From Xenophilus azovorans DSM 13620 (GTDB lineage Bacteria > Pseudomonadota > Gammaproteobacteria > Burkholderiales > Burkholderiaceae_C): DNA of 64,000 nucleotides. A model generated the notes under the pieces. The model worked only from the letters and a program-made list of their open reading frames with translations, searched no databases and had not been told where the DNA came from. Where the stretch lies: NCBI RefSeq assembly GCF_000745855.1, contig NZ_JQKD01000005.1:124001-188000 (forward strand), written 5' to 3'. Below, piece after piece: positions 39,354 to 59,004 of this stretch (position 1 is its first letter; each line of letters begins with the position of its first letter). Both the position numbers and the translations under genes were made by a program.

Positions 39354-39372
39354 GGTGATGCTCCAGAAGAAC

Positions 39373-39411: not shown

Positions 39412-39465
39412 AGGGTGGGAAGGAAAGGTCGGCCGGATTCGGGACCTGGCCGGTGATGACGACGA

Positions 39466-39777: not shown

Positions 39778-39875
39778 GGATGGCTCCTTGGAGATGGAAG
39801 GGCCATGGCGCCCCATCGGGGCGCAGACCCCGGTGGGTGGAAAGAAAGAACGCCGCGGCTGCGGACGTTCTGCGA

Positions 39876-41438: not shown

Positions 41439-42095
41439 TCAGGCGGTGGCCGCCATCTCCAGCGCGGCCGGAGCCGGCTGCTGGGTCGGATGGGCGGCGA
41501 GCACGCCTTGGCGGATGAGGTCGCCCAGCGCGTTGGTGAGCGCGGGCACGTCGATGGCGAGCCGGAACCCTTGCAGCGGCCCGAGGGCCACGGGCAGGGA
41601 GCACAGCATTTCGCGCTCGCGCAGCAGCGCCAGGACGGGCGATTGCCAGTGGTCCAGCAGCGGCAGCGGGCACGTGTCCTTGACCAGGTGCCACAGGCGT
41701 GACGTGGGATCGGCCGCGGAGCGCGGCAGCAGCGCCAAGGCGCTGGCCGAACTCTTGTCGGGCCGGATGCAGCGCCGGTCGAAGAGCCAGAGATTGACCA
41801 TCGAGCCGAACAGCGTGCGGCGATAGCTGCGGGTCAGGCGCTTTTCCAGCCGCTCGACCGAGCCGACGAACACGGGCAGCGAGCTGCCTTCGCTGGTGAT
41901 GACGTGGAACTGGTCCAGGCCGTCCTCGCTGCGACCCAGGGTGAGCCGCCCGATGAACTGCTGGATGGCGGTGTCGCGCGCCCAGACCGAGAGAAAGATC
42001 AGGTCGCCCTGGTCCCCGCAGACGCAGGCATCGGCCATGAGGTCGCTGCATTCGTCGATGCGGTACAGGGGCTGGTCGGATGAAGTGGCAGGCAT
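41439..42095 (-). CDS. Unrecognised accessory protein
   Basis: 218 residues. Begins with a Cys-containing stretch (CSDLMADACVCGDQGDLIFL) and has a basic middle (EKRLTRSYRRTLFGSMVN). No assignable motif, signal or membrane segment. It lies between the DUF6094 gene and two other small genes with the same kind of spacer. Confidence 0.65.
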   Translation of the reverse strand: MPATSSDQPLYRIDECSDLMADACVCGDQGDLIFLSVWARDTAIQQFIGRLTLGRSEDGLDQFHVITSEGSSLPVFVGSVERLEKRLTRSYRRTLFGSMVNLWLFDRRCIRPDKSSASALALLPRSAADPTSRLWHLVKDTCPLPLLDHWQSPVLALLREREMLCSLPVALGPLQGFRLAIDVPALTNALGDLIRQGVLAAHPTQQPAPAALEMAATA

Positions 42096-42209
42096 GGTGG
42101 TTTCCTCGATGTGAGGGGCGCACCGCCCGCAGGGGCAGTGAATGCCCCGTTAAGGATGAAGGAGCGCGCAGTGCTTGGGGCGGATGCCTCGACTGCGCCG
42201 CAGGTGACG

Positions 42210-42627: not shown

Positions 42628-43035
42628 TCAGGCCGTCAGTTCCGCGGCGGGAGCCGCGGCTGCCGTGGGTGAGCTCGATTGCGCGTGGTAGGCGCGAACG
42701 CCTGCACGCCATTGGGCGGACTGCTCCGGCGCGAGATCCAGATAGGACAGTGGGCACGAGTAGTAGAACGGGTGCATGGACTCGTCCATCGGCTTGTAGC
42801 CCCATTGGCGGCCACTGCCTTCCAGCAGGTCGCAGCGGATGTAACGCAGGGATTGGCCCGGCGCGAGATCATGATGCAAGCCTTCGACCTTGGCGGTCAT
42901 TTCGATCACGGACCACAGCACGTTACCGCGCAGGGTGTGGGCGATGACCTTCGCGCTGCCGCGCTCGGTCTCTTGCGGTGCGATCAGCTCCGCGATCAGT
43001 TCAGACCGCGATTGAGGAGAGAAATACCAGCCCAT
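42628..43035 (-). CDS. Unrecognised small protein
   Basis: 135 residues from ATG 43035 with a strong GGAGG site. Contains GNVLWSVIEM and SLRYIRCDLLEGSGRQWGYK; it ends in an Ala-rich tail. A family of similar small proteins is often annotated hypothetical on ICEs. No function assigned. Confidence 0.65.
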   Translation of the reverse strand: MGWYFSPQSRSELIAELIAPQETERGSAKVIAHTLRGNVLWSVIEMTAKVEGLHHDLAPGQSLRYIRCDLLEGSGRQWGYKPMDESMHPFYYSCPLSYLDLAPEQSAQWRAGVRAYHAQSSSPTAAAAPAAELTA

Positions 43036-43135
43036 GACAGGCCTCCGTGAAAAGTGGAGCCGGAGGTCTCCCCGCGGGGAGAACCCCCAGCGGGTGATGG
43101 AATGCCGCGTGTGCGGCGATGGAACCCAGTGCAGA

Positions 43136-43459
43136 CTAGGAACCGCAGCCGGCCGGGCAGTAACCCAGTTCGATGCCGTGCGTGCAGAAGCCGTTTTCGG
43201 CAAGCCAGTCCTGGGTTTCCTGCCGCTCGGCAGGTGTTGCGTAGTCCCATTCCTGGGCCGCGATTTCCAGAGCATGAACGCGCTGGCTTTCCGGCAACCG
43301 ACTGGCTTGCGCGTCGATCTCCGAACTGAAAAGCGTGACCCAGTGGTCCCAGGACAGGCCGCAGCCGCGCTGGGCGTGTGCGGCAGCCGTCTTGCAGAGA
43401 GCCCGCCACGCGGGTTCATCCAGTGCGGAACGGGGCGTATCGCAAGCGATGGTGGACAT
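43136..43459 (-). CDS. Unrecognised small Cys-containing protein
   Basis: 107 residues from ATG 43459 with GGAGG upstream. Helical, with a C-terminal group of Cys residues (GFCTHGIELGYCPAGCG) that could bind metal. No known family recognised. Confidence 0.62.
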   Translation of the reverse strand: MSTIACDTPRSALDEPAWRALCKTAAAHAQRGCGLSWDHWVTLFSSEIDAQASRLPESQRVHALEIAAQEWDYATPAERQETQDWLAENGFCTHGIELGYCPAGCGS

Positions 43460-43473
43460 GATGGAGACCTCCA

Positions 43474-43510
43474 GAAAAAAAGCCGAGGCCTCCCCCGCAT
43501 GGGGAAGGAG
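43474..43510 (-). terminator. Terminator-like leader hairpin with T7 run
   Basis: CCCC (493-496) and GGGG (501-504) core with flanking CTCC/GGAG, followed on the minus strand by CGGCTTTTTTT and then, within a few bases, the GGAGG site of the gene starting at 43459. No promoter fits between. Confidence 0.6.
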
Positions 43511-43554
43511 CCCCGGCGGGTGGATGAAGAACACCGCGGATGCGGCGTCTGCGA

Positions 43555-44301: not shown

Positions 44302-45219
44302 TCAGAACGAAGCAGCCAATGCCGGCGCCTGCTCCTCGACTTCGCCTGCGGGCTCGCGCTCGGCAAGCTGCTCGGCAGCGGTGTCGGCGGTGTCGGCGGC
44401 GTCCCCGGCTTCGGGCGCGGGTGCGTCCTCGGCCGGCGGCGCCTCGGCTTGCGCCTGGCTCGTCGGATAGACCCGGGTGCCGTCGATCTTGATCAGACCG
44501 ATGTGGACCAGCGTGGATTCCAGGCTCGCGGCCGGTTCCCCAGCGTGCTCGCCCTTTGTACGAATGTACGGATCGATCTTCATGTCGTTCAGACGGAAGG
44601 CGATCAGCACCTTGCGGTCCCCCTCGATGGCCTGGACGCACCGGCGAACCAGATGCTCGGCCTCGGGAGCACCGACGATCGTGTCGAAGTACCGATACTC
44701 CGGTTCATCGACAGGCCCCACCAGTGCGGCGATGGAGCATGCGAGGAATGGGTCGCCATCCGGGGGACTGACATCCTCGGGACGATTGAGATAGCCGATG
44801 CCGCGGGTGATCAGCTCGTGCTGCTGGATCGAAGCCAGTTCGGCCCGGTCGATCAGCTCGGCCTTGAGCAGCCGCGCCTTGATGGACGCGGCAACCTTGC
44901 CCTTGTGCTCACCCTTGTCGCGGATGTAGGGATCGCTGCGCAGGTCGCCGACGCGAAACCGCACCAGCGGACGCTGCTTGGGATCGTCAACGCCGATGTG
45001 GCGCTCGACCAGTTTCTTGGCCTCGGCACCGGAGACCTTGACATCGATGTAGCGGTAGCTCGGGTCCCGGGCGGGACCGACCAGCGCGGCGATGGTGCAT
45101 GCCAGGAAGGGCTGGGCACGGCGGCCGCCCTTGACAGGCACTTCACGGGCACGCTGCAGATAGCCGATGCCCGAGGTGTGGAGGTCGAAGTACGATTTCT
45201 CGTTGGATGGGGTGTTCAT
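44302..45219 (-). CDS. DUF3577 (STY4534-like) ICE protein with internal duplication
   Basis: 305 residues from ATG 45219. Two tandem copies of the same domain: about 18-125 (GIGYLQRAREVPVKGG, LACTIAALVGPARDPSYRY, DPYIRDKGEHKG) and about 140-250 (GIGYLNRPEDVSPPDG, LACSIAALVGPVDEPEYRY, DPYIRTKGEHAG). An acidic Ala-rich tail follows. DUF3577 proteins go with ICE replication and stability genes and may be single-strand-binding-like. It is preceded by structured leader A. Confidence 0.82.
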   Translation of the reverse strand: MNTPSNEKSYFDLHTSGIGYLQRAREVPVKGGRRAQPFLACTIAALVGPARDPSYRYIDVKVSGAEAKKLVERHIGVDDPKQRPLVRFRVGDLRSDPYIRDKGEHKGKVAASIKARLLKAELIDRAELASIQQHELITRGIGYLNRPEDVSPPDGDPFLACSIAALVGPVDEPEYRYFDTIVGAPEAEHLVRRCVQAIEGDRKVLIAFRLNDMKIDPYIRTKGEHAGEPAASLESTLVHIGLIKIDGTRVYPTSQAQAEAPPAEDAPAPEAGDAADTADTAAEQLAEREPAGEVEEQAPALAASF

Positions 45220-45310
45220 GGTGAATCTCCATTGGGAAGAAGGCGGAGACACACCGGCCCACGCATGCGGGGAAAGGTGCGTAACCCCGCGGTGGGTTGA
45301 GAAGGCGAAA

Positions 45311-45446
45311 GCATCCGCCACCAGAGACTGGTGGCCGCTCGCGGATGGATGCGGTGCGAGCTGGCTCGGTCACGCAGCGGGCGCTGCGCCTCAACCTCGA
45401 AGACCGATGGTTGCCGGGCATGTCGCTGAACACGTCAGCAGGCATG
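45311..45446 (-). ncRNA. Structured leader RNA element, copy A
   Basis: Read 5' to 3' on the minus strand: P1 inner stem GCTGA/TCAGC within a CATG/CATG outer pair; P2 CAACC/GGTTG (45392-45413); P3 CGCAGC-loop-GCTGCG (45373-45388); P4 GCTCGC/GCGAGC (45337-45361) with loop GCATCC; P5 CCACCAG/CTGGTGG (45318-45334); then GGATGC (45311-45316), fully complementary to the P4 loop. It sits 92 bp upstream of the DUF3577 gene. P2 and P3 differ from copies B-E by paired changes, evidence for an RNA structure. Confidence 0.7.
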
Positions 45447-45658
45447 GAGGCAGCATGACCAGGCCTCGCGCGCGCGGCAGCAATCAATCGGCATCCGGGT
45501 GCTTCCCTTTGTCCACCCCGCCCGGCGCCTGCCAAAGGCATTTGGGGCCGCGCAGGTGCTCGGGGGTGTCGGTGCGGGGGCGGCTCGGACGGCTCCAGAC
45601 GCCGCCGCCGCGCGTGCCGACCAGCCGCCAGCCGGCGGCGCGCACGCTGGCGCCGCCT

Positions 45659-46498
45659 TCAATCGCCGCAGAAGCAGGCGATCGGCTCTTCGGCGGCGTC
45701 GAACAGATCCCCCTGGTCGGCGGCGAAGCGCGCCAGGTCGGCGTAGCTGGGGCCGTCGGCCCGGAACCGAGCGCCGCTGGGCTTGCTCGCCAGGTTCAGG
45801 GACTCCATGCGAATCCACCAGACAGCGGCTTCGGGCCGGGCCTTGATGAGGGCCAGGCGCTGCCCGCGCGGCTTCAGGAAACACAGGTCGCAGTTGCCTT
45901 CGAGCGTGCGTCCGTTCACCGTGAGCAGGTCGAGGTCGAACGGCTGCGCTTGCCAGAAGGCGCCCACGTCGCGCACGGTGACGCCGGCGTCCGCCAGCGG
46001 CATGCACATGGTCTCGTGCGTCGATTCGGTGGAGTGGCCGCGCGCACGGATCTTGGCGACGCGCCGCTGCTCGTCGGCGCGGATGCCGATCATCTGGTCC
46101 CAGTCCGTCCAGCCCAGATGCCGCAGGAAGCGGTGCATCGGGCGAATCTTCAAGCTGGTGCAGCCTCTCGCCACGGGGTTGGGCAAATACTGGCGCTTGC
46201 GGATCAGCGCCTCGAACGGTTCGCCCTGCCGGCTGGCCCGGTCGAAGTCGACCAACGCGAAGCCCAGTTCCGAGGGCAGGTATTCGAGCCAGTGGATCGG
46301 CACCCGCCAGTGTTCGGCGCAGTCTCGCACGAAGCGCAGGGTCGCTTCTACTTCCTTGCCGGTGTTGGCGAAGCAGACCACGGTGTCGGCAGGAAGGCCG
46401 TCGTTGGCTTGCAGCACGCGCCAGAGCATGTAGGCGCTCGTGCGCCCGCCGCTGAAGCTGATGCAGGTCGGTTGGGTGATCTTGAACGGGTCGTGCAT
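45659..46498 (-). CDS. PAPS-reductase-family protein (DndC/CysH-like PP-loop)
   Basis: 279 residues. PP-loop SGGRTSA at 16-22 (ISFSGGRTSAYMLW), FANTGKEVEATLRFVRD, then Cys residues typical of Fe-S members (RGCTSLKIRP, EGNCDLCFLKPRG, and CFCGD at the very end). Family members activate substrates with ATP; relatives include CysH and the DNA phosphorothioation protein DndC. No other dnd genes are nearby, so the substrate is unknown. Such proteins are found in phages and ICEs next to DNA methylases. Confidence 0.82.
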   Translation of the reverse strand: MHDPFKITQPTCISFSGGRTSAYMLWRVLQANDGLPADTVVCFANTGKEVEATLRFVRDCAEHWRVPIHWLEYLPSELGFALVDFDRASRQGEPFEALIRKRQYLPNPVARGCTSLKIRPMHRFLRHLGWTDWDQMIGIRADEQRRVAKIRARGHSTESTHETMCMPLADAGVTVRDVGAFWQAQPFDLDLLTVNGRTLEGNCDLCFLKPRGQRLALIKARPEAAVWWIRMESLNLASKPSGARFRADGPSYADLARFAADQGDLFDAAEEPIACFCGD

Positions 46499-46606
46499 GC
46501 GGTTGTCTCTGGCGGCATGCCGGCGGGTGGGCCGGCGAGGCAGGCCATGGCGGCCGGAGACGAGCGCGCACGCGCGGTGATGGCCGCGGTGCGGAGAAAA
46601 GAGAAA

Positions 46607-46621
46607 GCCCCCGGTGGGGGC
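46607..46621 (-). terminator. Hairpin after the 39-residue ORF
   Basis: GCCCCC-GGT-GGGGGC, followed on the minus strand by a pyrimidine-rich TTTCTCTTTTCTC tract. It lies 28 bp after the stop codon of the small gene at 46649 and looks like its terminator. Confidence 0.6.
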
Positions 46622-46648
46622 CGCGAGGGACGAGCGGCTGATGCCGCG

Positions 46649-46768
46649 CTATGCCGGTGCAGCCACCTCCCACGACAGGTGCGTGGCGGTGGCAGACAGC
46701 ATCAGATCGTCCGCGGTGTGCAGGAGGCGAGTGAAGAAGAGCCGCCTGGCTTCGGTGCGAGGCTTCAT
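46649..46768 (-). CDS. Small coupled ORF of 39 residues
   Basis: Starts at ATG 46768, whose last bases overlap the upstream gene's stop codon (ATGA), and is followed by a terminator hairpin at 46607-46621. Sequence begins MKPRTEARRLFFTRLLHTAD. No homology recognised; translational coupling and terminator placement are the only support. Confidence 0.4.
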   Translation of the reverse strand: MKPRTEARRLFFTRLLHTADDLMLSATATHLSWEVAAPA

Positions 46769-47577
46769 GCCGCGGCGGCCTGGCGCTGCCGGGCCGCCTT
46801 CGCGTCGATCACGCTCACGCCGATCAGGCGCCAGCGCCCGTCGTCGATGAGCCGCTCCAGCACTTCGCCGAGCATGTCGAAGTACACCTCGTCGTGCCGT
46901 TCGACCAATTCGCCGTCGCGGTGCAGTTCCACCACGTAGACGTCGCCCGCGCGGTCGTACAGCACCGTCACCCGGCCCTCGAACTTCGCGGTCGAGACCG
47001 TGAAGCTGATCGCCGGAGGCGTTTCGATGATCTTGGACGGCTTCGGATCGACCCAGGTGAAATCCCGGGCGCCCGCATCGACCAGCATGTGGGTGATGCG
47101 CCGGAAGCCGTCGGGCGCTGGCATCTCCTCCAACTGCTCGATGAGCTGGCCCAGTTCCATGCACTGCGGCGCGGGAATGGGCAGCTTGGCTGGCGCGGAG
47201 CCCAGGATGTGCGTCTTGACGGTGTAGGGAACGCCGTCGGACGTCATCTCCGTGCGCTCTTGAGGAGTGTCCGCGCGCAGTCCATCGAAACGGCGCCGTG
47301 CGTAGGGTTGGACATGCACCTTGGCGCCTTCGCTGGGGACGGTGGTCACCAGGTTGGGATCGAGCACCGCGAACTCGCTGGGTTTGAGTTTGACGACGAT
47401 GGCGTCGTCGTTGGCCGCGACCACTTTTCCGTCGAAGGGTTGGGGGTCGATGGCGAAGCCCAGTGCCGAAGACTGGGGCTGATCGTCGAACACGCGGTAC
47501 TTGAACGACCGCACGTTGCGAGGCACGTGGCCTGCGACGAGCGAAGGCATCAGGGACTTGATGAAGGAACGGTCCAT
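46765..47577 (-). CDS. Unrecognised accessory protein
   Basis: 270 residues from ATG 47577 with an AAGGAG site. N-terminal part begins MDRSFIKSLMPSLVAGHVPR; there is a middle beta-rich stretch and a C-terminal part (KFEGRVTVLYDRAGDVYVVE, LDDGRWRLIGVSVIDAKAAR region). Conserved in this ICE class but with no function known to me. Structured leader B precedes it. Confidence 0.7.
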   Translation of the reverse strand: MDRSFIKSLMPSLVAGHVPRNVRSFKYRVFDDQPQSSALGFAIDPQPFDGKVVAANDDAIVVKLKPSEFAVLDPNLVTTVPSEGAKVHVQPYARRRFDGLRADTPQERTEMTSDGVPYTVKTHILGSAPAKLPIPAPQCMELGQLIEQLEEMPAPDGFRRITHMLVDAGARDFTWVDPKPSKIIETPPAISFTVSTAKFEGRVTVLYDRAGDVYVVELHRDGELVERHDEVYFDMLGEVLERLIDDGRWRLIGVSVIDAKAARQRQAAAA

Positions 47578-47682
47578 GGGAATCTCCTTGAGAAAGAACA
47601 AGGGACTCCCCGCCCGCAAGGGAAGGGTCCCTTGGGGGTGGCGTGGATGGACGCGGCGCGCCCGTGGAAAGAAACGACCAGC

Positions 47683-47753
47683 GCGGTTTCCCGCACCTGC
47701 AGCCTCGAAGGTCTCGGCTGCCTGGGCATGTGTCGGCAATGCCGACGAACATA
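47683..47753 (-). ncRNA. Structured leader RNA element, copy B (short form)
   Basis: P1 TCGGC/GCCGA (47733-47745) with outer ATGT/ACAT; P2 CAGCC/GGCTG (47700-47720); P3 GCGG-TTTC-CCGC (47683-47694). P4, P5 and the GCATC/GATGC pair of copies A, C, D and E are missing; a different small hairpin (GCGT/ACGC, about 47641-47654) takes their place. It lies 106 bp upstream of the gene starting at 47577. Confidence 0.6.
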
Positions 47754-48000
47754 GGGGCAAGGATGGCGTGGTACAAGGCGGCCCGCTCACAGGAAACGGC
47801 ACCGCATCTCGCCCGCTTTCCTGCGCTGCAGCAAGCAGGAAGTCGTCAAGAAATAGCGGTGGGAGGCGACTAAGCGCCCCAGGATCGGAACTGTGCGCGT
47901 ACTGCGCCGGAAGCAATCGGTGCTGGAACCTGAAGAAAAGGCCGGTACGAGCATCGTGCGGGCCCCAAGCCGAAGGGACCTGCAGACAGAAGCTGCTGCG
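47754..48000. other. Gene-free stretch
   Basis: No gene, repeat or clear regulatory site that I can support between leader B and the small membrane protein gene at 48001. Confidence 0.5.
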
Positions 48001-48306
48001 TCAGTCGGTTGGAGGCGGCACTTCCTCGTGGCCCGGCACAGACTTGATGCCCAAGCCCATCAACACAAGCAGCCCGACCACGAGAAAACCTACGCCCGTC
48101 ACCATCCCCAACAGCCCGGGCCAGATCCCAAAGTAACGCCGGAAATCGAGAAACGCGAGGATGTTCTCCGGCGAGATCACAGTGGGCAACGGTTCGAAGC
48201 CAACGACGTCGCGCGCGCCGAACGCAGCGACGACCGTGCCGAACAGCAGCACGGCCCAGCCGACGTATCGACGGCCCATGTCGTGCTTCTCACTCTCGGG
48301 GCTCAT
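48001..48306 (-). CDS. Small two-helix membrane protein
   Basis: 101 residues with transmembrane segments at about 14-32 and 62-86 and hydrophilic ends. Isolated between spacers; no family recognised. The hydrophobic pattern supports a real gene, but there is no strong ribosome binding site at the chosen start (ATG 48306; ATG 48279 is an alternative). Confidence 0.6.
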   Translation of the reverse strand: MSPESEKHDMGRRYVGWAVLLFGTVVAAFGARDVVGFEPLPTVISPENILAFLDFRRYFGIWPGLLGMVTGVGFLVVGLLVLMGLGIKSVPGHEEVPPPTD

Positions 48307-48387
48307 GGTGCTGATTGTGCAACTATTCTCCAGATCCAGGCCGGCGCGGTCATCGGCCGACGGTATCGCGCCCCGCGACGAGCCGAG

Positions 48388-48416
48388 AAAAAGCCCCTCG
48401 ATTGAAGTGAGGGGCT
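48388..48416 (-). terminator. Terminator after the 48424-48702 gene
   Basis: Stem AGCCCCTC (48392-48399) / GAGGGGCT (48409-48416), followed on the minus strand by TTTTTCTC. It lies 8 bp after the gene's stop codon. Confidence 0.75.
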
Positions 48417-48423
48417 GGAGGTG

Positions 48424-48702
48424 TCAGGCGCCGCACACGAAGCAGTGCGTGCGCTGCCGTGGGAAGAACACGTGCTTCCAGCTGTCGCCGCTGAGGGTGC
48501 CGCCGTCGAACACCACCATGTCGTAGCGGTCGATGTCGGTGTCCACGAGGTCGTCGATGGCGATGGGGCGCATGTGCAGCATGCCCTTGTCGCGCTCGAA
48601 CACCAGGGTCTGGCCGATGGCGTCGTCCTGGCACATGGCGCTGACGCAGGCACCGAGTTGCTGCTCGAAGTCCAGGGCAGGTGTGATGAGGTCTGGGAAC
48701 AT
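48424..48702 (-). CDS. Unrecognised small protein
   Basis: 92 residues from ATG 48702 with an AGGAG site. Acidic, with MVVFDGGTLSGDSWKHVFF and a C-terminal CFVC pair. No family recognised. A good terminator follows. Confidence 0.66.
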   Translation of the reverse strand: MFPDLITPALDFEQQLGACVSAMCQDDAIGQTLVFERDKGMLHMRPIAIDDLVDTDIDRYDMVVFDGGTLSGDSWKHVFFPRQRTHCFVCGA

Positions 48703-48798
48703 GAAATCGCTCCTGTGAAAAAGGGGTCCAGCCCGGCTCCCTGGCGGGAGACGGGCCGGCATGGATGACAAAGAGAAAGTTGGCGCGGTGCGAGCCCG

Positions 48799-49515
48799 TC
48801 AGGGCCCGGCCAGCGGCAGGCCCGGCAGCACAGGCGCGTCGGCGTCGAGGATGAGGATGCGCACATCGGCCTGGCCGGCCAGCGCCAGCACATGGGCCAG
48901 GTCTTCGGGCATGCCCCTGGAAAGATGCTCCTGGCGCAATTGCCCGGCGGTGATGCCTTCGGCCTGCATCAGGTTCTCGTCCGTCCACGGCGTGGTGAGC
49001 AGCTTGACGCCGACCGCCGGGCTGTACGGGATGCGGAAGGCGATGAACAGGAAGGCCTCGGGCGTGTCGATGTCGGCCCGCTCGGCCAGATAGTGGCCGG
49101 ATTCCTCGGTGATGTGCGCGCTGCTGACTTCCCAGCACCGGCTGTAGATACCGGTCTCGAAGCTCAGCCGCCGTATCACCTCGCGAGCCGCTTCCTCGGA
49201 GTAGGTGTCGCCTACGAGTCCGCGGCGTCCGTCGAAGTCTTCTCCTTCGATGGCATAGACCACCGAACGCACGATACCGTCGGCCTGGCTTTGCGCTTCC
49301 AGTTCCTCGGGCACTTCCTGTCCCTCGGTGATCAGCGCGAAGTCCTTTCCGACCAGGCACGGGAACTGCGCCACCTGATCGTCGGGCAGATGTGCCTGGG
49401 TGGGATGAAGAGTCCGCCAGACCGGAGGACTGTCGTCCTCGTAGGTGATGAGCAATGTGCGGATGGTGCGCAGATTCCGATAACCGCGGATGAAGGGGTT
49501 GTTGGACTCGGACAT
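48799..49515 (-). CDS. DUF5983-like accessory protein
   Basis: 238 residues from ATG 49515 with a GGAGG site. The C-terminal part (CWEVSSAHITEESGHYLAER, then LILDADAPVLPGLP) resembles DUF5983-type proteins that end with a short conserved stretch after VS.AHI..E. The N-terminal part is unassigned. Family placement is tentative; function unknown. Confidence 0.6.
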   Translation of the reverse strand: MSESNNPFIRGYRNLRTIRTLLITYEDDSPPVWRTLHPTQAHLPDDQVAQFPCLVGKDFALITEGQEVPEELEAQSQADGIVRSVVYAIEGEDFDGRRGLVGDTYSEEAAREVIRRLSFETGIYSRCWEVSSAHITEESGHYLAERADIDTPEAFLFIAFRIPYSPAVGVKLLTTPWTDENLMQAEGITAGQLRQEHLSRGMPEDLAHVLALAGQADVRILILDADAPVLPGLPLAGP

Positions 49516-49547
49516 GGAATGGTTCCTCCGTAGAGAATACCGAGGCC

Positions 49548-49564
49548 ACTCCCCGCCGGGGAGT
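49548..49564 (-). other. Leader hairpin before the 49515 gene
   Basis: Perfect 7-bp stem ACTCCCC-GCC-GGGGAGT, in the 81-bp spacer and followed on the minus strand by a short C/T-rich stretch and the GGAGG site. Same type as at 39808-39824 and 43474-43510. Confidence 0.5.
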
Positions 49565-49596
49565 GAAACCCCGGTGGGTGGAAAACGAAAAGGGCG

Positions 49597-50301
49597 TCAG
49601 GTGCGGGCGGCCGGCGCTCGGGCCAGGCGTTCGGCAACGCGCTGGCGCACGCCCATGCGGAAGTGGTCGTCCTGGATGCCTGCGAACAGGCCCTGCGTCT
49701 CCTTGTCGATCAGCGCGGCAGCCGTTTCGGGATCGTGGTCGACGACGGCCTTTCGCAGTGCCTGCCCCAGCGGTATGGCGGTGGATGACCCGCGGAACAC
49801 CCGGACCTCGCGGCTCAGGAAGCTGGCCGCACCGCCGAACTCGAACAGCAAGGGCTTGCTGCAATACCAACTGCCCTCGAACTCGATGGCCACCAGCCGG
49901 TGGCCGTCGTCGAAGGCGGTGGCGAGCAAGAACAGGGCTTCGAGGTCCGCCTCGCCCTTGAATCCGTGGTGCTCGATGAGGTTCAGAAGATCCGTGTCCT
50001 CCTGCGCACCGAAGCGGGAGGCGAGCAGGTCGAGGATGACCTGGATCGACACGTCGTCGCTGTCGTCCTGCGCGTCGTCGGATTCTGGTGCGGGAAGGTC
50101 GAGTTGCGCAGCCAGCGTGATGAGGTCGAGCAGCACGCCGTCCCACTCGGGAACGTGCGCCTCGGAGAGGCGGGCGATGTAAGCCCTGCCGTTGCCGGGA
50201 TGGGATCCTTCCAGCCGGAAGCGGCCGAACAGCGCGGAGATGACCGGTGTCACCCGGTCGAGAACGAGAACGCCAGTGGCGTCGTAGTAGTTGTTGGCCA
50301 T
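49597..50301 (-). CDS. Unrecognised accessory protein
   Basis: 234 residues from ATG 50301 with an AGGAG site. Acidic (DDAQDDSDDVSIQVILDLLA), with a C-terminal helical domain. No recognised motif, signal or membrane segment. Confidence 0.68.
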   Translation of the reverse strand: MANNYYDATGVLVLDRVTPVISALFGRFRLEGSHPGNGRAYIARLSEAHVPEWDGVLLDLITLAAQLDLPAPESDDAQDDSDDVSIQVILDLLASRFGAQEDTDLLNLIEHHGFKGEADLEALFLLATAFDDGHRLVAIEFEGSWYCSKPLLFEFGGAASFLSREVRVFRGSSTAIPLGQALRKAVVDHDPETAAALIDKETQGLFAGIQDDHFRMGVRQRVAERLARAPAART

Positions 50302-50410
50302 GGTGGCTCCTGCGATGTGAAGGCGGAGCCAGGCCCATGCGGACGATGGCATCCGCAGGGGAAGGCACCGAATCCGGGCGTGGATTCGATGGATGGCTGG
50401 CTGGCCGGGA

Positions 50411-50878
50411 TCAGCCGCCGAAGTCCGTGGGATCGCCCATGGCCTTCAGCACCTCCACCAGGCTGTCGTGGACAAGCTGGTACAACTGCTCATAGTCCTC
50501 GCCAGTCGGCGACTGGTCTGACTTGATGAGCAGTTCGTCGGCATCGACGATGTATTTGCGCAGTTCGCGCAGCTTGACGACTGGCGGGTCGTCGGCGTCT
50601 TCGTCGTCGATGGGCTGGCCGATGGCCGACAGCACCGCGCCGGGTGACAGCACATCCGCCTGGTCCGTGTAGACCAGGGGATCTTCGCCCCGGCAGAAGG
50701 CCTCGACGACATCATTGCCGATGTGGAAGCGGGTCAGTTCCTCGCGGTCCGCGCCTTCGGTGTCGTGGTCCACGATGGCGACGCGGGGCAGCGCGAGGTG
50801 GGCGGGCCAGTTCTGCACGATAAAGGCCTGTACCAGCCCGCCTTCGAGAACGACCGCGATGGAAGGGGTAGGGGACAT
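50411..50878 (-). CDS. Unrecognised accessory protein
   Basis: 155 residues from ATG 50878 with an AGGAG site. The N-terminal part (PSIAVVLEGGLVQAFIVQNW, RVAIVDHDTEGADREEL) has an alternating strand/helix pattern of a small alpha/beta domain; the rest is acidic and helical. No function known. Confidence 0.68.
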   Translation of the reverse strand: MSPTPSIAVVLEGGLVQAFIVQNWPAHLALPRVAIVDHDTEGADREELTRFHIGNDVVEAFCRGEDPLVYTDQADVLSPGAVLSAIGQPIDDEDADDPPVVKLRELRKYIVDADELLIKSDQSPTGEDYEQLYQLVHDSLVEVLKAMGDPTDFGG

Positions 50879-50894
50879 GTTCGCTCCTGTGAAG

Positions 50895-50934
50895 AGAAAG
50901 AGGGACATGGCCCCGGACGGGGGCGCATGTCCCT
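50895..50934 (-). terminator. Strong hairpin before the 50878 gene
   Basis: Stem AGGGACATG (50901-50909) / CATGTCCCT (50926-50934) with inner GCCCC/GGGGC, followed on the minus strand by CTTTCTCTT and then the AGGAG site of the gene at 50878. Terminator-like but upstream of a start codon. Confidence 0.6.
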
Positions 50935-50978
50935 TGTGGGGTGGGATGAAGGAAACAGCGGTGGTGCGCCGGGTGGGC

Positions 50979-51371
50979 TCACCAGCCGCCGTAGTGCAGC
51001 AGCAGGTCGGCAAGCACACCGCGGCGTTCCATGTCGAGCCCACCGAAGTCGGCGAGCCCATGGAAGCCGCAGCGCTTGAGCAGCGTGCCGCCCTTGCGCT
51101 CGTTGTAGAAGCTGACCATGGCGGCGAGGAACATGCGTTCCCCGCCGCTCAGGACGCTGAGGGCTTTGCTGATCCTCGGTACATCCGGGCACAGATCCCA
51201 TTTGTCCCGTGCCTGGTTCAGCCCTTCGGGGGTGCCGTCGCCAAACCATTGCGGTCCGGCGAGCCGCACACCCCGCTTCCAGGCTTGGAGAAACGCCTTG
51301 GGCGCAGCAGCGAAATGCCGCTCCTCCCGTGCGATCTGTTCGACGATGTCCGATGGCAGAAGCTGGCGCAT
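50979..51371 (-). CDS. Unrecognised small protein
   Basis: 130 residues from ATG 51371 with an AAGGAG site; it starts only 26 bp after the previous stop. Helical with GGERMFLAAMVSFYNERKGG and a C-terminal GLADFGGLDMERRG segment. No family recognised. Confidence 0.66.
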   Translation of the reverse strand: MRQLLPSDIVEQIAREERHFAAAPKAFLQAWKRGVRLAGPQWFGDGTPEGLNQARDKWDLCPDVPRISKALSVLSGGERMFLAAMVSFYNERKGGTLLKRCGFHGLADFGGLDMERRGVLADLLLHYGGW

Positions 51372-51397
51372 GACAGACTCCTTGCAGAGTTGATCCA

Positions 51398-51622
51398 TCA
51401 GGGATTGGCGAGCTGGGACCAGCCGCCTCTTTCGAGGGCGCGTTCCGCTGCGGCATGGCTGCGGAAGTACTCGCAGGATTCCCGTGAAACGGGTCCTTCG
51501 GTGTCGCGCGTGCCGATGTAGTGGCCCGCGGCACTGTGCAGGACTTCGAGCGGCAGGAACTTGCCGCAGTAGACCAAGGCCAATTGACCGAAAGATCGGC
51601 CGAAAGAGGGGTTCTGGGACAT
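51398..51622 (-). CDS. Unrecognised small protein
   Basis: 74 residues from ATG 51622 with AAGGAG upstream. Contains LALVYCGKFLPLEVLHSAAG and a C-terminal region SRESCEYFRSHAAAERALER. No family recognised. Structured leader C precedes it. Confidence 0.62.
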   Translation of the reverse strand: MSQNPSFGRSFGQLALVYCGKFLPLEVLHSAAGHYIGTRDTEGPVSRESCEYFRSHAAAERALERGGWSQLANP

Positions 51623-51694
51623 GGATGGGCTCCTTGAAGAGGCGGGGCCTTGTCCCTCGCGGGATGGCAGCTCCCGCAGGCGGTTGAAGAACAA

Positions 51695-51824
51695 GCATCG
51701 GCGTCGCAAGGACGCTCGTCCGCAGGATCGATGCATGGCGGACTGGAGGGTGGCGCGGAGAGAACCCCGCGGCAGCCTGGAAACCCTGGCTGCTGGCATG
51801 TGCTGACGGATCAGCGACACATGC
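51695..51824 (-). ncRNA. Structured leader RNA element, copy C
   Basis: P1 GCATGTG/CACATGC (51796-51824) with inner CTGA/TCAG; P2 CAGCC/GGCTG (51773-51792); P3 CGCGG/CCGCG (51754-51771); P4 GTCCGC/GCGGAC (51718-51743) with loop GCATCG; P5 GCGTC/GACGC (51701-51715); then CGATGC (minus strand, 51695-51700), complementary to the P4 loop over six bases. It lies 73 bp upstream of the 51622 start. Confidence 0.72.
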
Positions 51825-51901
51825 GGGCAGCTTCGTCCGGGGGCCAGCGCGCGTCAGCCGGAAATCGGCACCCGGCCCGCTCCCGATTGATGGGCGCGCG
51901 C

Positions 51902-51933
51902 AAAAAAGAAAGCCCCGCATCGCGTGCGGGGCT
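51902..51933 (-). terminator. Terminator after the 51959-52516 gene
   Basis: Stem AGCCCCGCA (51911-51919) / TGCGGGGCT (51925-51933), followed on the minus strand by TTCTTTTTTG. It is 25 bp after the stop codon at 51959. Confidence 0.78.
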
Positions 51934-51958
51934 GTGAGGACGGTGCGGTGGCGCAGGA

Positions 51959-52516
51959 TCAGCGGGGCTTGTCGCCCAGGACATGCTGTTTCCACAGCGC
52001 GAATGCCTCGTCCGGCGGCAGCTCGGCGAGGATGACGATGGGCTGGGCCTGCCGGGCCCGCAGCGACGCGAAGTACGCCTTGCGGTCCGCGATGGCCTTG
52101 AGCTTGATGCCCTTGAGGAACTTCAGCTTGCCGTCCTTGATGAACAGCACCTTGTTGCCGATGTCGCGGCTGAACGCGGTGCGCAGCTTGCGCTCCGCGT
52201 GCATCGCGTCGGCCAACTGGTCGACGAGGAAGTCGAGCGTGATGTCGATGCGCAGCGGCTCCTCGTCCTCGCGTTCGAGGTCGAGCGTGGCCGGCGGCAG
52301 GCCCTTGGCGAATGCCTCGGCCTGGGCCAGCAGCGCGGCCTGGCCTTGCAGCGCGCGCACGAACGTCGAGCCGCCATGCCCGTCGTTGCGGGCCTCGGCG
52401 ATGGGAGTGCCGTCGAACACGACGGTGGCGGTGAAGCACAGCGTTTCTTCGCTGGCGAAATCCGCCACCTTGAGGTTCTTCAGCGTGATGCGGTCTTGTT
52501 GGGTGATGGTTTCCAT
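51959..52516 (-). CDS. Unrecognised accessory protein
   Basis: 185 residues. N-terminal strand-rich domain (TLKNLKVADFASEETLCFTA, VVFDGTPIAEARNDG) resembling small SSB-like or YegP-like beta folds, then an acidic helix and a basic C-terminal region (KDGKLKFLKGIKLKAIADRK). No named family. Preceded by structured leader D and followed by a good terminator. Confidence 0.7.
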   Translation of the reverse strand: METITQQDRITLKNLKVADFASEETLCFTATVVFDGTPIAEARNDGHGGSTFVRALQGQAALLAQAEAFAKGLPPATLDLEREDEEPLRIDITLDFLVDQLADAMHAERKLRTAFSRDIGNKVLFIKDGKLKFLKGIKLKAIADRKAYFASLRARQAQPIVILAELPPDEAFALWKQHVLGDKPR

Positions 52517-52594
52517 GGGAAGTCCTGAAGTCGACCGGGTGGCGACACGCCCCTACGGGATGTGGCGACCATCCCGTGGGTTGGAGAAGAGGAG

Positions 52595-52725
52595 GCATCG
52601 ATGCCCCGGTGGGCAGCGTTCGCCGGTGGGATGCCGGGGCGAACTGGCGGGTGGCGTGGGCGGAACCCACGGCAGCCTCGACACCCTGGCTGCGGGCATG
52701 GTGCTGCCACGGCAGCGACACATGC
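52595..52725 (-). ncRNA. Structured leader RNA element, copy D
   Basis: P1 GCTGCC/GGCAGC (52703-52716) within GCATG/CATGC; P2 CAGCC/GGCTG (52673-52692); P3 CGTGGG-loop-CCCACG (52655-52671); P4 GTTCGCC/GGCGAAC (52618-52644) with loop GCATCC; P5 TGCCC/GGGCA (52602-52615); then CGATGC, which pairs with the P4 loop over GATGC. Every stem differs in sequence from another copy yet still pairs. Located 79 bp upstream of the 52516 start. Confidence 0.72.
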
Positions 52726-52802
52726 GAAGGAGCATCGGCCCAGCACCCGCGTGCGTCATCCGGCAATCTGGATTCATCGCGGCCGGATTGCCGCAGCCCA
52801 AG

Positions 52803-52824
52803 AGAAAGCTCCCCGGAGGGAGCT
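52803..52824 (-). terminator. Terminator after the GHKL ATPase gene
   Basis: Stem AGCTCCC-CGGA-GGGAGCT (52807-52824), followed on the minus strand by TTTCTCTTG; 10 bp after the stop codon at 52834. Confidence 0.72.
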
Positions 52825-52833
52825 GAAGGGGGA

Positions 52834-54411
52834 TCACTGCACGCTCGCCAGCTTGCCCTCACCGTCGAAGCCCAGGCACACGGTGGCGCCGGCGAGCTTG
52901 GGCTGCTTTGAGAATCGCCAGGACGTGGGCAGCAGTTCCTCGATGGCACGGGCGGGCGAGTCCGAGCAACCGACCGCGATGAACGTGGCGATGGTCTGCG
53001 CATCCTCGTCCTCGCGCTCTTCGTCGTAGCGGTCGTCGAAGACGTAATCGGAGATGAGTCTGGTCACGTCGTGCGCGTGGGGTGCCACGTAGAGCATTCC
53101 ATGCCTGCGGATGGCGGCCACTGCATACTCGCGGGATTCATTTCCCAGGCTGGCGGCCAGCGTTCCGACCAGGGTGACGCCGATGGCGTCACCGTGCAGC
53201 GGCAGGCAGTCGTCCGCGTGGAGAACCGCGCCATGGTGGATGCCGATCTGCGCCGGGTCCGCGAAGTTGACGATCTCGATCAGCCAGTGGCCGCCATCGA
53301 GGCGGTGCTCCTCCAGCAGGAAAACCTGCCTGGCCGCCAGATAGACCTCGGCGGTCGGCACATCCTCGTCGTCTTCGGCGTCGATGGCCCAGACGCCGAC
53401 CTCCTGGAGCGCCTCCCGGGCGACGACGCCTTCGGCCTGGTGGCGATCCCAGTACCGGCCCCAATGGGTGCGGAAGCCCGGCGGCTCATGGGCCCAGTCA
53501 CGGAACCAGCTGCGCGGCACGAAGGGAATATCGTTGAGCAGATCCGCGTTCGATGAGGACAGGCACGTGGATGCGTACTGCATCACGAACTCGGCACCGG
53601 ACAACCGGTCCTTGGCTTCGGTCAACGCCTGGCGGAAGGCCTCCTCGACCGCCGCCCGAATGCGCTTGTGATCCTCGTCTTCATTGAGCAGATGCCGCCG
53701 GTCCGGCGGGCGGGCGATCATGTCGTCGCGCAGCACCACGATCTGGTGGTCCGGCGACGAAGGGACAGACCCGATGGGGAGCCCTTGGAGATAGCAACGG
53801 TATTGCGACGGTGCCCCGTTCAAGTCGATGAGAACCTGGCCGACGGCGGTGTCCCGCCAGGGCAGACCAGGCCGTGACAGCGGCCGGTCGAACTCCGTGC
53901 CGTTGAAGGTCACGCGGACGGGGAAGGCTTCGCACAGCCGCACCAGTTGCTGCTCGACCCACTCGGTCAGCGTCGGGCCCTGGTAGGGCGGCTCGACACC
54001 ACATAGGCGGATCTCGGTGCCGATGCGCGCCGGCGCGGTAATCACCTCCACCTCGTCGCCGCCGATGATCGCGGCGGTGGCGGCGCGAAAGGCCTTGTCC
54101 AGCGAATGCACGCGCAGGCTGCGCGCGAAGTACAGCGTGGAGAGCACGCCGATGCCGAAGGGATTCTCCCGGGCCTTCAGTTCCTCGTCCCAGCCGGACT
54201 CGGCGATGCAGATGAGGGCCTGGAGGTCGGCGATACCCTCGCCGTCGTCGCTGACGGTGAGCGTGTCGCCTTCGGCGGTGATGTGGATGTGGCGGGCCTT
54301 GGCGCGCCGGGCGTTCTGCAACAGCTCGCCCAGCATCGAGGCCGGGGTGAACGCATGGCGCAGGGTGGCGATCAGGCGGTTCTGGTTCGTTTGAAGACGG
54401 ATGGTGGTCAT
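52834..54411 (-). CDS. GHKL-family ATPase (HSP90/MutL/histidine-kinase fold)
   Basis: 525 residues. N box ASMLGELLQNARRAKA (E29, N33), G1 DDGEGI (55-60) and G2 FGIGVLSTLY (85-94) give a complete Bergerat ATP-binding site. The C-terminal 300 residues match no kinase or MutL domain that I know; a histidine phosphorylation site and response regulator are absent. It may be a DNA-repair-like or defence-like ATPase of the element. Structured leader E precedes it. Confidence 0.83.
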   Translation of the reverse strand: MTTIRLQTNQNRLIATLRHAFTPASMLGELLQNARRAKARHIHITAEGDTLTVSDDGEGIADLQALICIAESGWDEELKARENPFGIGVLSTLYFARSLRVHSLDKAFRAATAAIIGGDEVEVITAPARIGTEIRLCGVEPPYQGPTLTEWVEQQLVRLCEAFPVRVTFNGTEFDRPLSRPGLPWRDTAVGQVLIDLNGAPSQYRCYLQGLPIGSVPSSPDHQIVVLRDDMIARPPDRRHLLNEDEDHKRIRAAVEEAFRQALTEAKDRLSGAEFVMQYASTCLSSSNADLLNDIPFVPRSWFRDWAHEPPGFRTHWGRYWDRHQAEGVVAREALQEVGVWAIDAEDDEDVPTAEVYLAARQVFLLEEHRLDGGHWLIEIVNFADPAQIGIHHGAVLHADDCLPLHGDAIGVTLVGTLAASLGNESREYAVAAIRRHGMLYVAPHAHDVTRLISDYVFDDRYDEEREDEDAQTIATFIAVGCSDSPARAIEELLPTSWRFSKQPKLAGATVCLGFDGEGKLASVQ

Positions 54412-54551
54412 GGCATGGCTCCTTGGATGAGGTCATGCGCCGGTGGGGCGCTGGAAAGAAGCGGCACACGCCGATGCCCGCCGCGATGGCGTGGCGGGCG
54501 GGAATGGGCCGGTATGGAGGGGGATGGGCTCGGCGGCCCGTTGAAGAAGCG

Positions 54552-54679
54552 GCATCAACGCCCTGGTCGGGCGCGTGTCCGCGGCACGATGCGATGCGGA
54601 CAAGGACGGTCGGCGCGGGGAACCCGCGGCGCAGCCTGAACGACCGTGGCTGCTGGCAGTTGCCGATGCTCGGCTATGC
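54552..54679 (-). ncRNA. Structured leader RNA element, copy E
   Basis: P1 GCCGA-TGC-TCGGC (54662-54674), flanked by GCA/TGC; P2 CAGCC/GGCTG (54632-54652); P3 CGCGGG-GAA-CCCGCG (54614-54628); P4 GTCCGC/GCGGAC (54577-54601) with loop GCATCG; P5 CGCCC/GGGCG (54559-54573); then GATGC (54552-54556). It is 141 bp upstream of the GHKL ATPase start, the longest distance of the five. Confidence 0.7.
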
Positions 54680-54718
54680 AGGAACGAGGATGGCGCGGCC
54701 TGCTGGCTGCGTCGTGCA

Positions 54719-56218
54719 TCAATCCGAAGCGGTCGATCCCGTTTTGTGCAGGCACTGCACCAGCCGCTGGCCCAGCCATGCGACACAAGGCACGGCCATG
54801 GAATTGCCGATCGCCTTGTAGCGCGGGGCGTCCGCGGCGGGCTTGCCGCGGTACGGGACCAGGGTGTAGTCGTCGGGCATGCCCTGCAGCCGCTCGCACT
54901 CGGTGGGCATCAGCCGCCGCACCCGCCACTGCGACCAATCCCCCGGGCCGGGCTCATTCCAGTCGTAGCGCAAATGCGCCCCGTGGCCTGGCACCACGCC
55001 GAGCACCATCGGCCGGCCCTGGCCCGGCTTGCCACCCCCCGTCGAGAGAACCCCTGCGACCTGGCCATGACCGGATTCCAGCCGCAGTTCGCCGCGCGAG
55101 TTCTGCGCGAAGGCGATGGCCGGGACCACGCCCGCGTTCGCATGGCTGCCGCGATGCCCGCCTGCACGCAGCGTCGGCGTCCTCCCCACCGTCACATCGG
55201 CGCCGCAGCCCTGGGCCGTGAAGGCGATGATCGGGACACCCTTGCCCGTGCCATCTTCGCCGCAGCCCTTGCCGCCGTTGGCGGTGCACAGCGTGTGGCT
55301 GATGCCGCCAGCGACCGACTGCACCAGGTATGTCTCGGTGCAGATGTCGTGTTTCGGGCCGGCCGCCAGCAGGCTCGCGGCCACATCGGACGGGCCGCAT
55401 CCATTGCCGAACCCGAACGTCGTCGTCACCTTGCCGTAGGGCTGCTTCAGTCCCGCATGTCCGCCTGCTGCCGCAGCGCCAGGTCCAGCAGCGCGGGCAG
55501 CGTCTTGCCACGGCGCGAAGCCCGCACCAGAATCCCCGCGCAGGCCCGTGCGCTCAAAAAGTACTTCTGCGGGATCGAGATCAGGATTACCACTTGCCAC
55601 AAGAAACACGCGCTTGCGGCGTTGGGCGACACCGAAATATTGAGCGTCGAGCACGCGCCAGGCGATGCTGCGCCGGGGTCCAGACACACAACCAGCGTGC
55701 GCCCATTTTTGCCCTGGCGGTTCGAGCGCACGGCTTTCTCCGGCCAGTGCGCCCAGGAAATGACCGAAGGCATTGCTGCGGTCGTTGAGGACGCCCGGGA
55801 CGTTTTCCCAGACGAGGGTGGCCGGCGGGCGGCGGTCTTGGCGGCGGGTTTGGTCGATGGCATTGGCTAACTCCACATAGGCAAGGGTCAAGGCGCCGCG
55901 CGGGTCGTCCAGGCCCCCGCGTGCGCCGGCGATGCTGAACGACTGGCACGGCGTGCCGCCGACCAGGATGTCGGGCGCCGGCACGGTGCCGGCGCGCACC
56001 TGGCGGGCGATCGCGGTCATGTCGCCCAGGTTGGGCACGCGGGGGTAACGGTGGGCGAGCACGGCGCTCGGGAACGGCTCGATCTCGGCGAACCACGCGG
56101 CTTCGAGGCCGAGCGGATGCCAGGCGAGGCTCACGGCCTCGATGCCGCTGCACACGCTGCCGTACAGCAGCGGCGCGTTGCGCGGCGCACCGCGAGGGGT
56201 GCCAGGTTGCGGGTTCAT
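54719..56218 (-). CDS. C5-cytosine DNA methyltransferase
   Basis: 499 residues from ATG 56218. SAM motif I YGSVCSGIEAVSLAW (19-33), catalytic PCQ at 90-92 (GGTPCQSFSIAG; Cys91), ENV motif (VWENVPGVL), QRRKRVFLVA and a C-terminal motif with RLMPTECERLQGMPDDYT and YKAIGNSMAVP. The insert of about 200 residues between the QRR motif and the C-terminus is the target recognition region and is longer than in restriction-associated enzymes, typical of phage and ICE methylases. No restriction endonuclease is nearby. Its leader is the region to 56757. Confidence 0.9.
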   Translation of the reverse strand: MNPQPGTPRGAPRNAPLLYGSVCSGIEAVSLAWHPLGLEAAWFAEIEPFPSAVLAHRYPRVPNLGDMTAIARQVRAGTVPAPDILVGGTPCQSFSIAGARGGLDDPRGALTLAYVELANAIDQTRRQDRRPPATLVWENVPGVLNDRSNAFGHFLGALAGESRALEPPGQKWAHAGCVSGPRRSIAWRVLDAQYFGVAQRRKRVFLVASGNPDLDPAEVLFERTGLRGDSGAGFAPWQDAARAAGPGAAAAGGHAGLKQPYGKVTTTFGFGNGCGPSDVAASLLAAGPKHDICTETYLVQSVAGGISHTLCTANGGKGCGEDGTGKGVPIIAFTAQGCGADVTVGRTPTLRAGGHRGSHANAGVVPAIAFAQNSRGELRLESGHGQVAGVLSTGGGKPGQGRPMVLGVVPGHGAHLRYDWNEPGPGDWSQWRVRRLMPTECERLQGMPDDYTLVPYRGKPAADAPRYKAIGNSMAVPCVAWLGQRLVQCLHKTGSTASD

Positions 56219-58800: not shown

Positions 58801-59004
58801 GTCCGTCCATCCGATTCCCGTGGTTCGTTGAGTTGCCGGGATCGAGAATGCCGGGCATCACGAGGGGCGGCAGCAAACAAGCGGCATGCGGTCGCGACCG
58901 CTTTGGCGAGACGAAATGGCTGGGCGGGGATGGCGTGCGCTCGGCGGTGTGCGGGCCGGGAGCCGCGATTTACGGGAGCGCGTGGAAGCCGGTGGATGTT
59001 GATG

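Follow-up and report, generated by a model that had tools for sequence, protein, structure and literature searches.

The radC RNA family is represented by five leader copies in a 64,000-nt stretch of the genome of Xenophilus azovorans DSM 13620 (contig NZ_JQKD01000005.1, here C4, positions 124001-188000; hereafter the window, taken from a host genome of 6.5 Mb in 132 contigs). Behind these RNAs, and before many neighbouring cistrons, lies a separate 3′ module in which a strand can pair with the Shine-Dalgarno (SD) sequence. It is probable that radC RNA serves as a 5′ regulatory RNA heading operons of a mobile element, and that the module acts as a pseudoknot-gated translation switch at each cistron, in a manner like that of repZ in IncI-alpha plasmids.

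All five copies were found where an initial annotation of the sequence had placed them, on the minus strand upstream of genes starting at 45219 (copy A), 47577 (B), 51622 (C), 52516 (D) and 54411 (E). The conjecture made there, that the element might be the radC motif, proved right: each copy matches RF01754 over positions 1-149 of this 149-position model, at 68.2-107 bits against an Rfam gathering score of 40 bits and with E-values of 2e-19 to 1.4e-10 in a scan of the whole window. The five are ordinary members of a known family, which rules out the other possibility raised, a wholly new RNA; the RNA that is absent from Rfam is the module behind them. The copies lie at 45311-45456 (A, 107 bits, P1-P5), 47612-47763 (B, 104.2 bits), 51695-51833 (C, 83.0 bits), 52595-52734 (D, 68.2 bits) and 54552-54691 (E, 71.7 bits). 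Their genes encode unrelated proteins, as had been noted: a DUF3577/STY4534 family replication protein of integrative and conjugative elements (ICEs) behind A (44302-45219; Pfam 1e-88, NCBIfam 5.2e-72), proteins of 270, 74 and 185 aa with no Pfam or NCBIfam family behind B (46765-47577), C (51398-51622) and D (51959-52516), and a 525-aa GHKL-type ATPase, by sub-threshold Pfam scores, behind E (52834-54411). PADLOC, a search for defence systems, gave no match for these five genes.

The helices described earlier are real. P2 (CAACC/GGTTG in A, CAGCC/GGCTG in the other four copies), all five versions of P3, and P4 in A, C, D and E were located, and B, by reading of its sequence, is without the P4 of the others. 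These helices are not the full fold, however, since two pseudoknots and the 3′ module had been overlooked. The claim of paired substitutions stood up in an alignment of 41 copies, built by MAFFT without structure and then used to draw the structure, in which both partners have changed in 35 of 49 pairs (shuffle mean 19.9) and none of 500 shuffles matched the observed value on any of five measures. Helices P1-P3 are conserved with covariation. In 122 distinct copies aligned by a model, an alignment that leans toward the structure, two-sided changes were seen in 36 of 38 pairs.

The drawn fold consists of P1-P5 and two pseudoknots, pk1 between the P2 loop and the strand just 3′ of P3, and pk2 between the P4 loop and the strand just 3′ of P5. 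In copy A, pk1 is formed by CGGTC (45406-45402) and GACCG (45371-45367), and pk2 by GCATCC (45352-45347) and GGATGC (45316-45311). The corresponding strands are GGGT/ACCC and GCATCG/CGATGC in C, GGGT/ACCC and GCATC/GATGC in D, and CGGTC/GACCG and GCATCG/TGATGC in E; copy B has GAGACC/GGTC for pk1 and is without the P4/P5/pk2 domain in its usual form. A covariance model of the nested radC helices that leaves the pseudoknots out (R1) gave 129 matches across 73 sources, 124 of them after removal of duplicates. Both pseudoknots were examined by swapping partners among 51 copies below 80% identity, thinned from 100 main-class copies of the 124 (B-type copies, copies with odd loop or segment lengths and a remnant at 18794 were left out), a comparison that is independent of aligning the pseudoknots. 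The longest Watson-Crick helix averaged 4.80 with the copy's own partner vs 2.98 with a swapped one for pk1, and 5.57 vs 4.23 for pk2, with none of 2000 permutations reaching either value. Variants that keep the pairing include GGUC/GACC, GAUC/GAUC, GGGU/ACCC and GAACC/GGUUC for pk1 and GCAUCC/GGAUGC, GCUUCC/GGAAGC and GCAUUC/GAAUGC for pk2. Judged from these comparisons, radC RNA holds two tandem pseudoknots. Of the B-type copies (13 nonredundant ones), five form pk1 with four Watson-Crick pairs, seven with two or three, and one forms no such pair.

The consensus line that cmscan prints for RF01754 shows no P4 and neither pseudoknot. Its 3′ pairing (117-119/147-149) was replaced by P4 and pk2, which covary. 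It was reported by Rivas 2020 (PMC7657543) that radC is among the families with covarying pairs absent from the database structure; as the missing radC pairs were reported in general terms, pk1 and pk2 are best regarded as a refinement.

Several observations support radC RNA as a cis-acting leader, read on the sense strand. Rfam gives the family the type Cis-reg, and, by position only, 119 of the 124 copies have an SD and start codon no more than 260 nt downstream on their own strand; the exceptions are L134, L119, L048, L108:4474 and the 18794 remnant. G.T mispairs exceed A.C mispairs in the helices of the 41-copy alignment (122 to 52; 28 sequences with more G.T, five with more A.C, eight tied), which indicates the sense strand. 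With R1, 243 copies were found in 80 DUF3577 loci (the best 80 of 125 relatives, many of them alike), all on the strand of the DUF3577 gene of their locus, and every one of the 80 has one radC RNA just upstream of that gene.

Upstream of the fold, at positions counted from the first model base, two kinds of promoter-like motif lie at fixed distances. TTGAC starts at -24 to -27 in 23 of the 124 copies (2.4 are expected per 30-nt interval), and a CCGATT-like hexamer occurs at -34 to -36 in 59 others. An AATCGG-like hexamer is found at -54 to -56 in 42 copies, 39 of them among these 59, the two hexamers together making an inverted repeat. The fixed distances suggest that radC RNA probably starts at the transcript 5′ end; this would place a -10 element over the first bases of the model and the transcript start near P1. 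A box matrix made from 31 nonredundant boxes, some of them taken from the window, gave 11 window sites of at least 16 bits, all on the minus strand; five one-strand shuffles peaked at 8.2 to 13.8 bits. Five sites are at the radC RNAs: 45476-45517 (A, 21.8 bits, an AATCGG/CCGATT-like inverted repeat), 47784-47825 (B, 28.2 bits), 51853-51894 (C, 33.7 bits), 52755-52796 (D, 21.2 bits) and 54711-54752 (E, 21.1 bits). The other six have no radC RNA; one, at 58869-58910 (20.1 bits), precedes a topoisomerase gene read from 58800, another is at 34166-34207 (29.3 bits), and the rest are at 27489, 17771, 61883 and 11056. A plus-strand site of 15.1 bits overlaps the box of C.

The stretches between radC RNA and the start codon are alike even where the genes differ. 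They comprise P6, a G-rich hairpin, then a strand ending in UCUCC or CCUCC, the SD and AUG, and the P6 loop can pair with the SD-masking strand. A MAFFT alignment of this region over 30 leaders put P6 in the wrong place; hence a covariance model (R2) was built from 16 alike leaders and then widened by its matches (R3). Both models contain the start codon. With R3, the module of A (45217-45301, minus strand, like all modules below) scored 54.8 bits (E 1.6e-8), with the P6 hairpin and an end at AUG; its anti-SD strand GGTGTGTCTCCGC (45255-45243) faces the SD strand GGAGATTCACC (45230-45220). The module of B (47575-47642, 46.7 bits) overlaps the 3′ end of the Rfam match, and its predicted pairing joins GGGGAGTCCCTTG (47611-47599) to the SD strand CAAGGAGATTCCC (47590-47578). 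These two matches are strong; the one at C (51620-51688) is moderate, at 25.9 bits (E 0.0041).

SD masking was scored by duplex energies, an uninterrupted-helix criterion being one that misses B and others. In radC leaders, the duplex of the SD strand and its own upstream strand has an energy of -14.20 kcal/mol vs -11.20 kcal/mol for swapped strands (n=51; 0/5000 permutations). The predicted probability that the SD core is unpaired is 0.00 in A, 0.11 in C and 0.02 in E, and its median is 0.01 in radC leaders vs 0.23 in 128 control genes from the same loci (p=1.6e-5), a control set unscreened for modules that may contain some. The preference holds without the radC RNA: modules with none within 260 nt have SD pairing of -14.85 own vs -10.60 swapped (n=50; 0/5000), compared with -14.71 vs -11.52 for modules that have one (n=36). 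In a module alignment fitted by the model, 17 of 19 pairs change on both sides, a count reached by 5 of 500 shuffles, and no shuffle of 500 reached the covariation score. Across the sequences compared, the SD pairing of the module covaries.

B-type leaders, such as 47575-47642, contain the repeats CAAGGGAC, CCCTTG and GTCCCTTG, by which one strand could pair with either an upstream repeat or the SD. Small changes in these repeats are present in most of 14 nonredundant B-type leaders compared.

Within the window, R3 gave 17 matches at E<=1, of which 13 reach E<=0.1. Each match is on the minus strand and has at its end the ATG of a reading frame 92 to 760 aa long. The 13 lie within 36.9-52.6 kb, where about 22 minus-strand genes, counted by eye, extend up to 54.4 kb. 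Modules without radC RNA precede a 760-aa helicase-like gene (module 39351-39420, 49.8 bits; gene 39353-37071, Pfam Helicase_C and ResIII), a DUF5983 gene (49513-49583, 42.7 bits; 49515-48799) and the reading frames 39777-39466 (39775-39842, 34.3 bits), 42095-41439 (42093-42160, 31.3 bits), 43035-42628 (43033-43098, 30.7 bits), 43459-43136 (43457-43524, 32.0 bits), 50301-49597 (50299-50365, 37.5 bits) and 50878-50411 (50876-50945, 26.6 bits); a weak match at 36956-37028 (19.0 bits, E 0.08) precedes 36958-36089. The idea that the RNA unites the five downstream genes in one regulon is therefore plausible but too narrow, with the promoter box at six more window sites and the 3′ module at many more genes.

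The module is concentrated in element loci. With R2, matches at E<=0.1 number 134 in 40 such loci (306 kb, training leaders included) and zero in 300 kb of the same chromosome, where the limit of E<=1 admits two. Of 123 matches at E<=0.02, 63 lie no more than 260 nt behind a radC RNA; the other 60, which do not, include second cistrons in radC operons and modules preceded by STAXI RNA. Start codons end 122 of the 123, and 120 open a reading frame of at least 50 aa. In 57 of 65 modules without radC RNA (the 60 and five weaker ones from the window), the stop of an upstream reading frame is near, at a median of 33 nt before the module, and it lies before rather than inside the module in 56 of the 57, which makes plain translational coupling through the SD hairpin unlikely.

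In the host genome, where 150 of 1270 first-look candidates were scored, R3 found at least 20 modules at E<=0.1, on C4, C9, C77, C83 and C97. The scored matches are confined to these five contigs, two of which (C4 and C9) hold all nine radC RNAs, five copies in the window and four on C9. On C77, C83 and C97 (L280, L281 and L282), the genes with a module in front include a methylase/helicase-like one of 1683 aa and a DUF932 gene, and the parts of these contigs that were scanned with R1 gave no radC RNA. The idea that they form a third copy of the element was dropped, since a tblastn search with 17 window queries, one of which (the methyltransferase) had an incorrect length and may have been out of frame, brought up nothing except a relative of the GHKL protein, on C97; the single relative and the lack of radC RNA suggest that they may be another mobile element.

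The distribution among genomes is patchy. The radC RNA was found in 10 of 200 genomes of the host family, 2 of 369 in a class sample, 6 of 398 in a phylum sample, 5 of 15 genomes of the host genus and 72 of 248 genomes of the family of G738, the host being included wherever it was drawn. These counts are lower bounds, since the large samples were filtered more strictly and part of their candidates were scored. Positive genomes have 3 to 9 copies in the host family, where several copies are thus usual, and often one or two in the family of G738. The module was found in 5 of 15 genomes of the host genus, the same five as the radC RNA, in 28 of 119 genomes of the family of G738, 23 of which are radC RNA-positive, and in 15 of 149 genomes of the family of G838, which we take to be enterobacteria. 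Among the 35 matches listed for this last family, 20 module loci were examined: STAXI RNA lies within 260 nt upstream in 10 and between 485 and about 1000 nt upstream in three, radC RNA was found in one, and the other six are without any Rfam match in the locus. The four STAXI-led genes that were checked encode DUF3577, like the gene behind copy A. EFASI RNA (RF02957) was also seen to share loci with STAXI RNA (L220:843-972 and L258:11539-11686).

The gating part of the proposed switch concerns a third pairing, pk3, between the P6 loop and the strand that follows. It reaches at least 5 bp in 43 of 84 nonredundant modules, and in these its 3′ strand overlaps the SD-masking strand by at least 2 nt in 35 and by at least 4 nt in 29; in those modules pk3 and SD masking would therefore compete for one strand. 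The P6 loop resembles the SD strand more in its own than in swapped modules (3.13 vs 2.66; 0/5000), and modules without radC RNA also favour their own pk3 partner (4.54 vs 3.82; n=50; 0/5000). In leader A, the best scored loop pairing is to another strand, with an overlap of 0, although GGUGUGU is a further possible partner of ACGCACC in its loop, as in L129 and L099; the competition may be extended to leader A by analogy with such modules.

The following mechanism is proposed. Each copy would form the 5′ end of an mRNA made from a mobile-element promoter, with radC RNA beginning at or near the transcription start and folding into P1 and two pseudoknotted domains, P2/P3/pk1 and P4/P5/pk2, the second being absent from copy B. 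Next would come the separate module of about 60-90 nt, consisting of P6, the start codon and, between them, a strand with two possible partners, the SD strand and the P6 loop (pk3). With the strand on the SD, translation would be low; removal of the strand by pk3 would raise it. Both the switching and its direction are predicted, and pk3 would be the activator. The trigger would presumably be a factor of the element, either protein or RNA, and the radC domain may help to recruit or sense it, or may serve another end, such as antitermination. Because the module is found at later cistrons in the absence of radC RNA, translation of the entire block could be set by a single factor that acts on modules.

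A number of observations weigh against this reading. At E<=1, R3 found no module before the gene behind E, and the match at D (52514-52585) is weak, at 19.0 bits (E 0.08). The predicted probability that the SD core is unpaired is 0.44 in D, where masking is not clear, and 0.25 in B, where masking is partial and one of the four core bases is bulged. The control genes also prefer their own strand, to a lesser degree (-11.47 vs -10.43; 0/5000). A pk3 of 5 bp or more is limited to little over half of the modules, as given above, and 42 of the 124 radC copies have neither TTGAC nor the box at the expected place. The ending of modules at start codons is partly built in, the start codon being inside the model, and 16 of the 123 matches are the training leaders. 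In the family of G738, five of the 28 module genomes (G951, G955, G973, G1001 and G1022) fall outside the radC RNA-positive set, so that the association of the two RNAs is not an obligate one.

The put RNA of phage HK022 and EAR RNA are processive antiterminator RNAs. Similarly, radC RNA, made first, might bind RNA polymerase and allow it to pass the terminators of a long operon, with the module a separate matter. The RNA does adjoin promoter-like boxes at operon heads, and there are terminator-like sites at 52824-52807 and 51933-51911, each shortly ahead of the radC promoter box that follows, and at 46622-46606; however, the presence of the same SD-masking module behind both radC and STAXI RNA would be left unexplained, and this alternative is considered rather unlikely. 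Transcription attenuation in the leaders was rejected as a general mechanism. There are nine terminator-like sites in 44.8-55 kb, vs 4.7 +/- 2.4 in shuffles; one of them, 47697-47680, is P3 of copy B, and only one weak site of five pairs (54478-54463) is located between a radC RNA and its start codon, in leader E, where attenuation could still operate. It is also unlikely that the modules are simply intercistronic terminators or ordinary ribosome sites that do not switch. They do fill gaps between cistrons, most of them having an upstream stop near by, and two in the window contain terminator-like sites (50914-50902 and 49555-49541). On the other hand, the SD pairing covaries, a U-run after P6 is absent in most leaders, as judged by eye, and with the upstream stop before the module in nearly all cases the upstream ribosome does not read through the SD hairpin.

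Compact tandem pseudoknots with conserved unpaired stretches and SD masking near by would also suit a metabolite riboswitch with the module as its expression platform, and radC carries a questioned switch label ("?") in Weinberg 2010 (PMC2864571). This is quite improbable, as the named genes behind the RNA (those of the DUF3577 replication protein and RadC) suggest no common metabolism, and the module also occurs behind STAXI RNA and, in 60 of 123 cases, without radC RNA within 260 nt. Finally, the structure might work as single-stranded DNA, in transfer, replication or as a single-strand promoter, rather than as RNA. This idea was raised for STAXI by Weinberg 2010 (PMC2864571), and the named genes behind the copies are of the mobile-element kind. 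It is highly improbable in view of the strand agreement of all 243 copies in the 80 DUF3577 loci, the SD and start codon behind nearly every copy, and the TTGAC or box motifs upstream of the fold; the excess of G.T over A.C fits RNA or sense-strand DNA.

The proposed pseudoknot-gated switch has a known parallel. In the IncI-alpha plasmid ColIb-P9, translation of repZ needs a pseudoknot upstream of the ribosome site (PMC8383071). A similar masking of the SD by a helix near the start is predicted for the present set, in which a hairpin loop would compete for the SD-masking strand. The repZ system differs in having one gene and an antisense RNA (PMC8383071), whereas many cistrons per element carry the module here and the loop sequences vary by gene. 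At the level of transcription, it has been reported that a 27-bp motif is common to eight of nine bimodal, BisDC-dependent promoters of the transfer-competence genes of ICEclc (PMC9286271, PMC7423338). The 11 window sites resemble this in being a common motif before several transcription units, and, on this likeness of arrangement, the box may correspond to the ICEclc motif.

The radC and STAXI RNAs have been listed since 2010 (Weinberg 2010, PMC2864571), where STAXI RNA (RF01728) is described as repeated pseudoknots near genes for DNA-handling proteins. In this it is like radC RNA, and the likeness extends to the same 3′ module behind both and to DUF3577 genes led by both. STAXI RNA differs in being a separate Rfam family, annotated as "Gene; sRNA" and not as a leader, and it has no match in the window at the Rfam gathering threshold. 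With regard to RF01754, the Rfam model does not reach the module in copies whose second domain is of the usual form. Rfam 15 at gathering score gave nothing at the modules, returning radC alone in the window and only radC, STAXI and EFASI in 141 kb of 13 other loci. In the literature searched, which did not extend to the supplements of the 2010 and 2017 motif papers, no paper, as judged from its listing, gives radC RNA a function or describes the module. New here are pk1 and pk2 beyond the cmscan consensus line, the promoter boxes at fixed distances and the separate 3′ module.

Some further features of the window were noted. A sixth radC RNA copy, truncated and degraded, is at 18794-18911 on the minus strand (R1 26.9 bits, no Rfam match). 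It matches around P1-P2 and, by eye, stands behind a thioredoxin-like reading frame; a similar stretch stands before radC RNA and a RadC gene in other loci. As R1 also gave weak matches on the chromosome control (best 19.9 bits, E 0.008), the call of this remnant rests on sequence and place besides score. Elsewhere in the host genome, one radC RNA (L101) precedes a RadC gene. Between the gene behind B and copy A, a 3′-phosphoadenosine 5′-phosphosulfate reductase-like gene (45659-46498, minus strand) has no module match and no radC RNA before it.

Taken more broadly, and as a tentative proposal, the module would be an unlisted and widespread RNA shared by radC and STAXI leaders, placed before many accessory cistrons of conjugative elements in several proteobacterial families. 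On this view, the radC and STAXI RNAs could stand in for each other as the 5′ part of a single post-transcriptional control system, and one factor would switch the translation of many cistrons together. A shared SD-masking module offers a concrete function, translation control per cistron, and ties the radC and STAXI RNAs to the same genes. If this is true, the accessory genes of such elements would be under double control, from a shared promoter box and a shared RNA switch, and the unknown genes of the block could be studied as a single regulated set.

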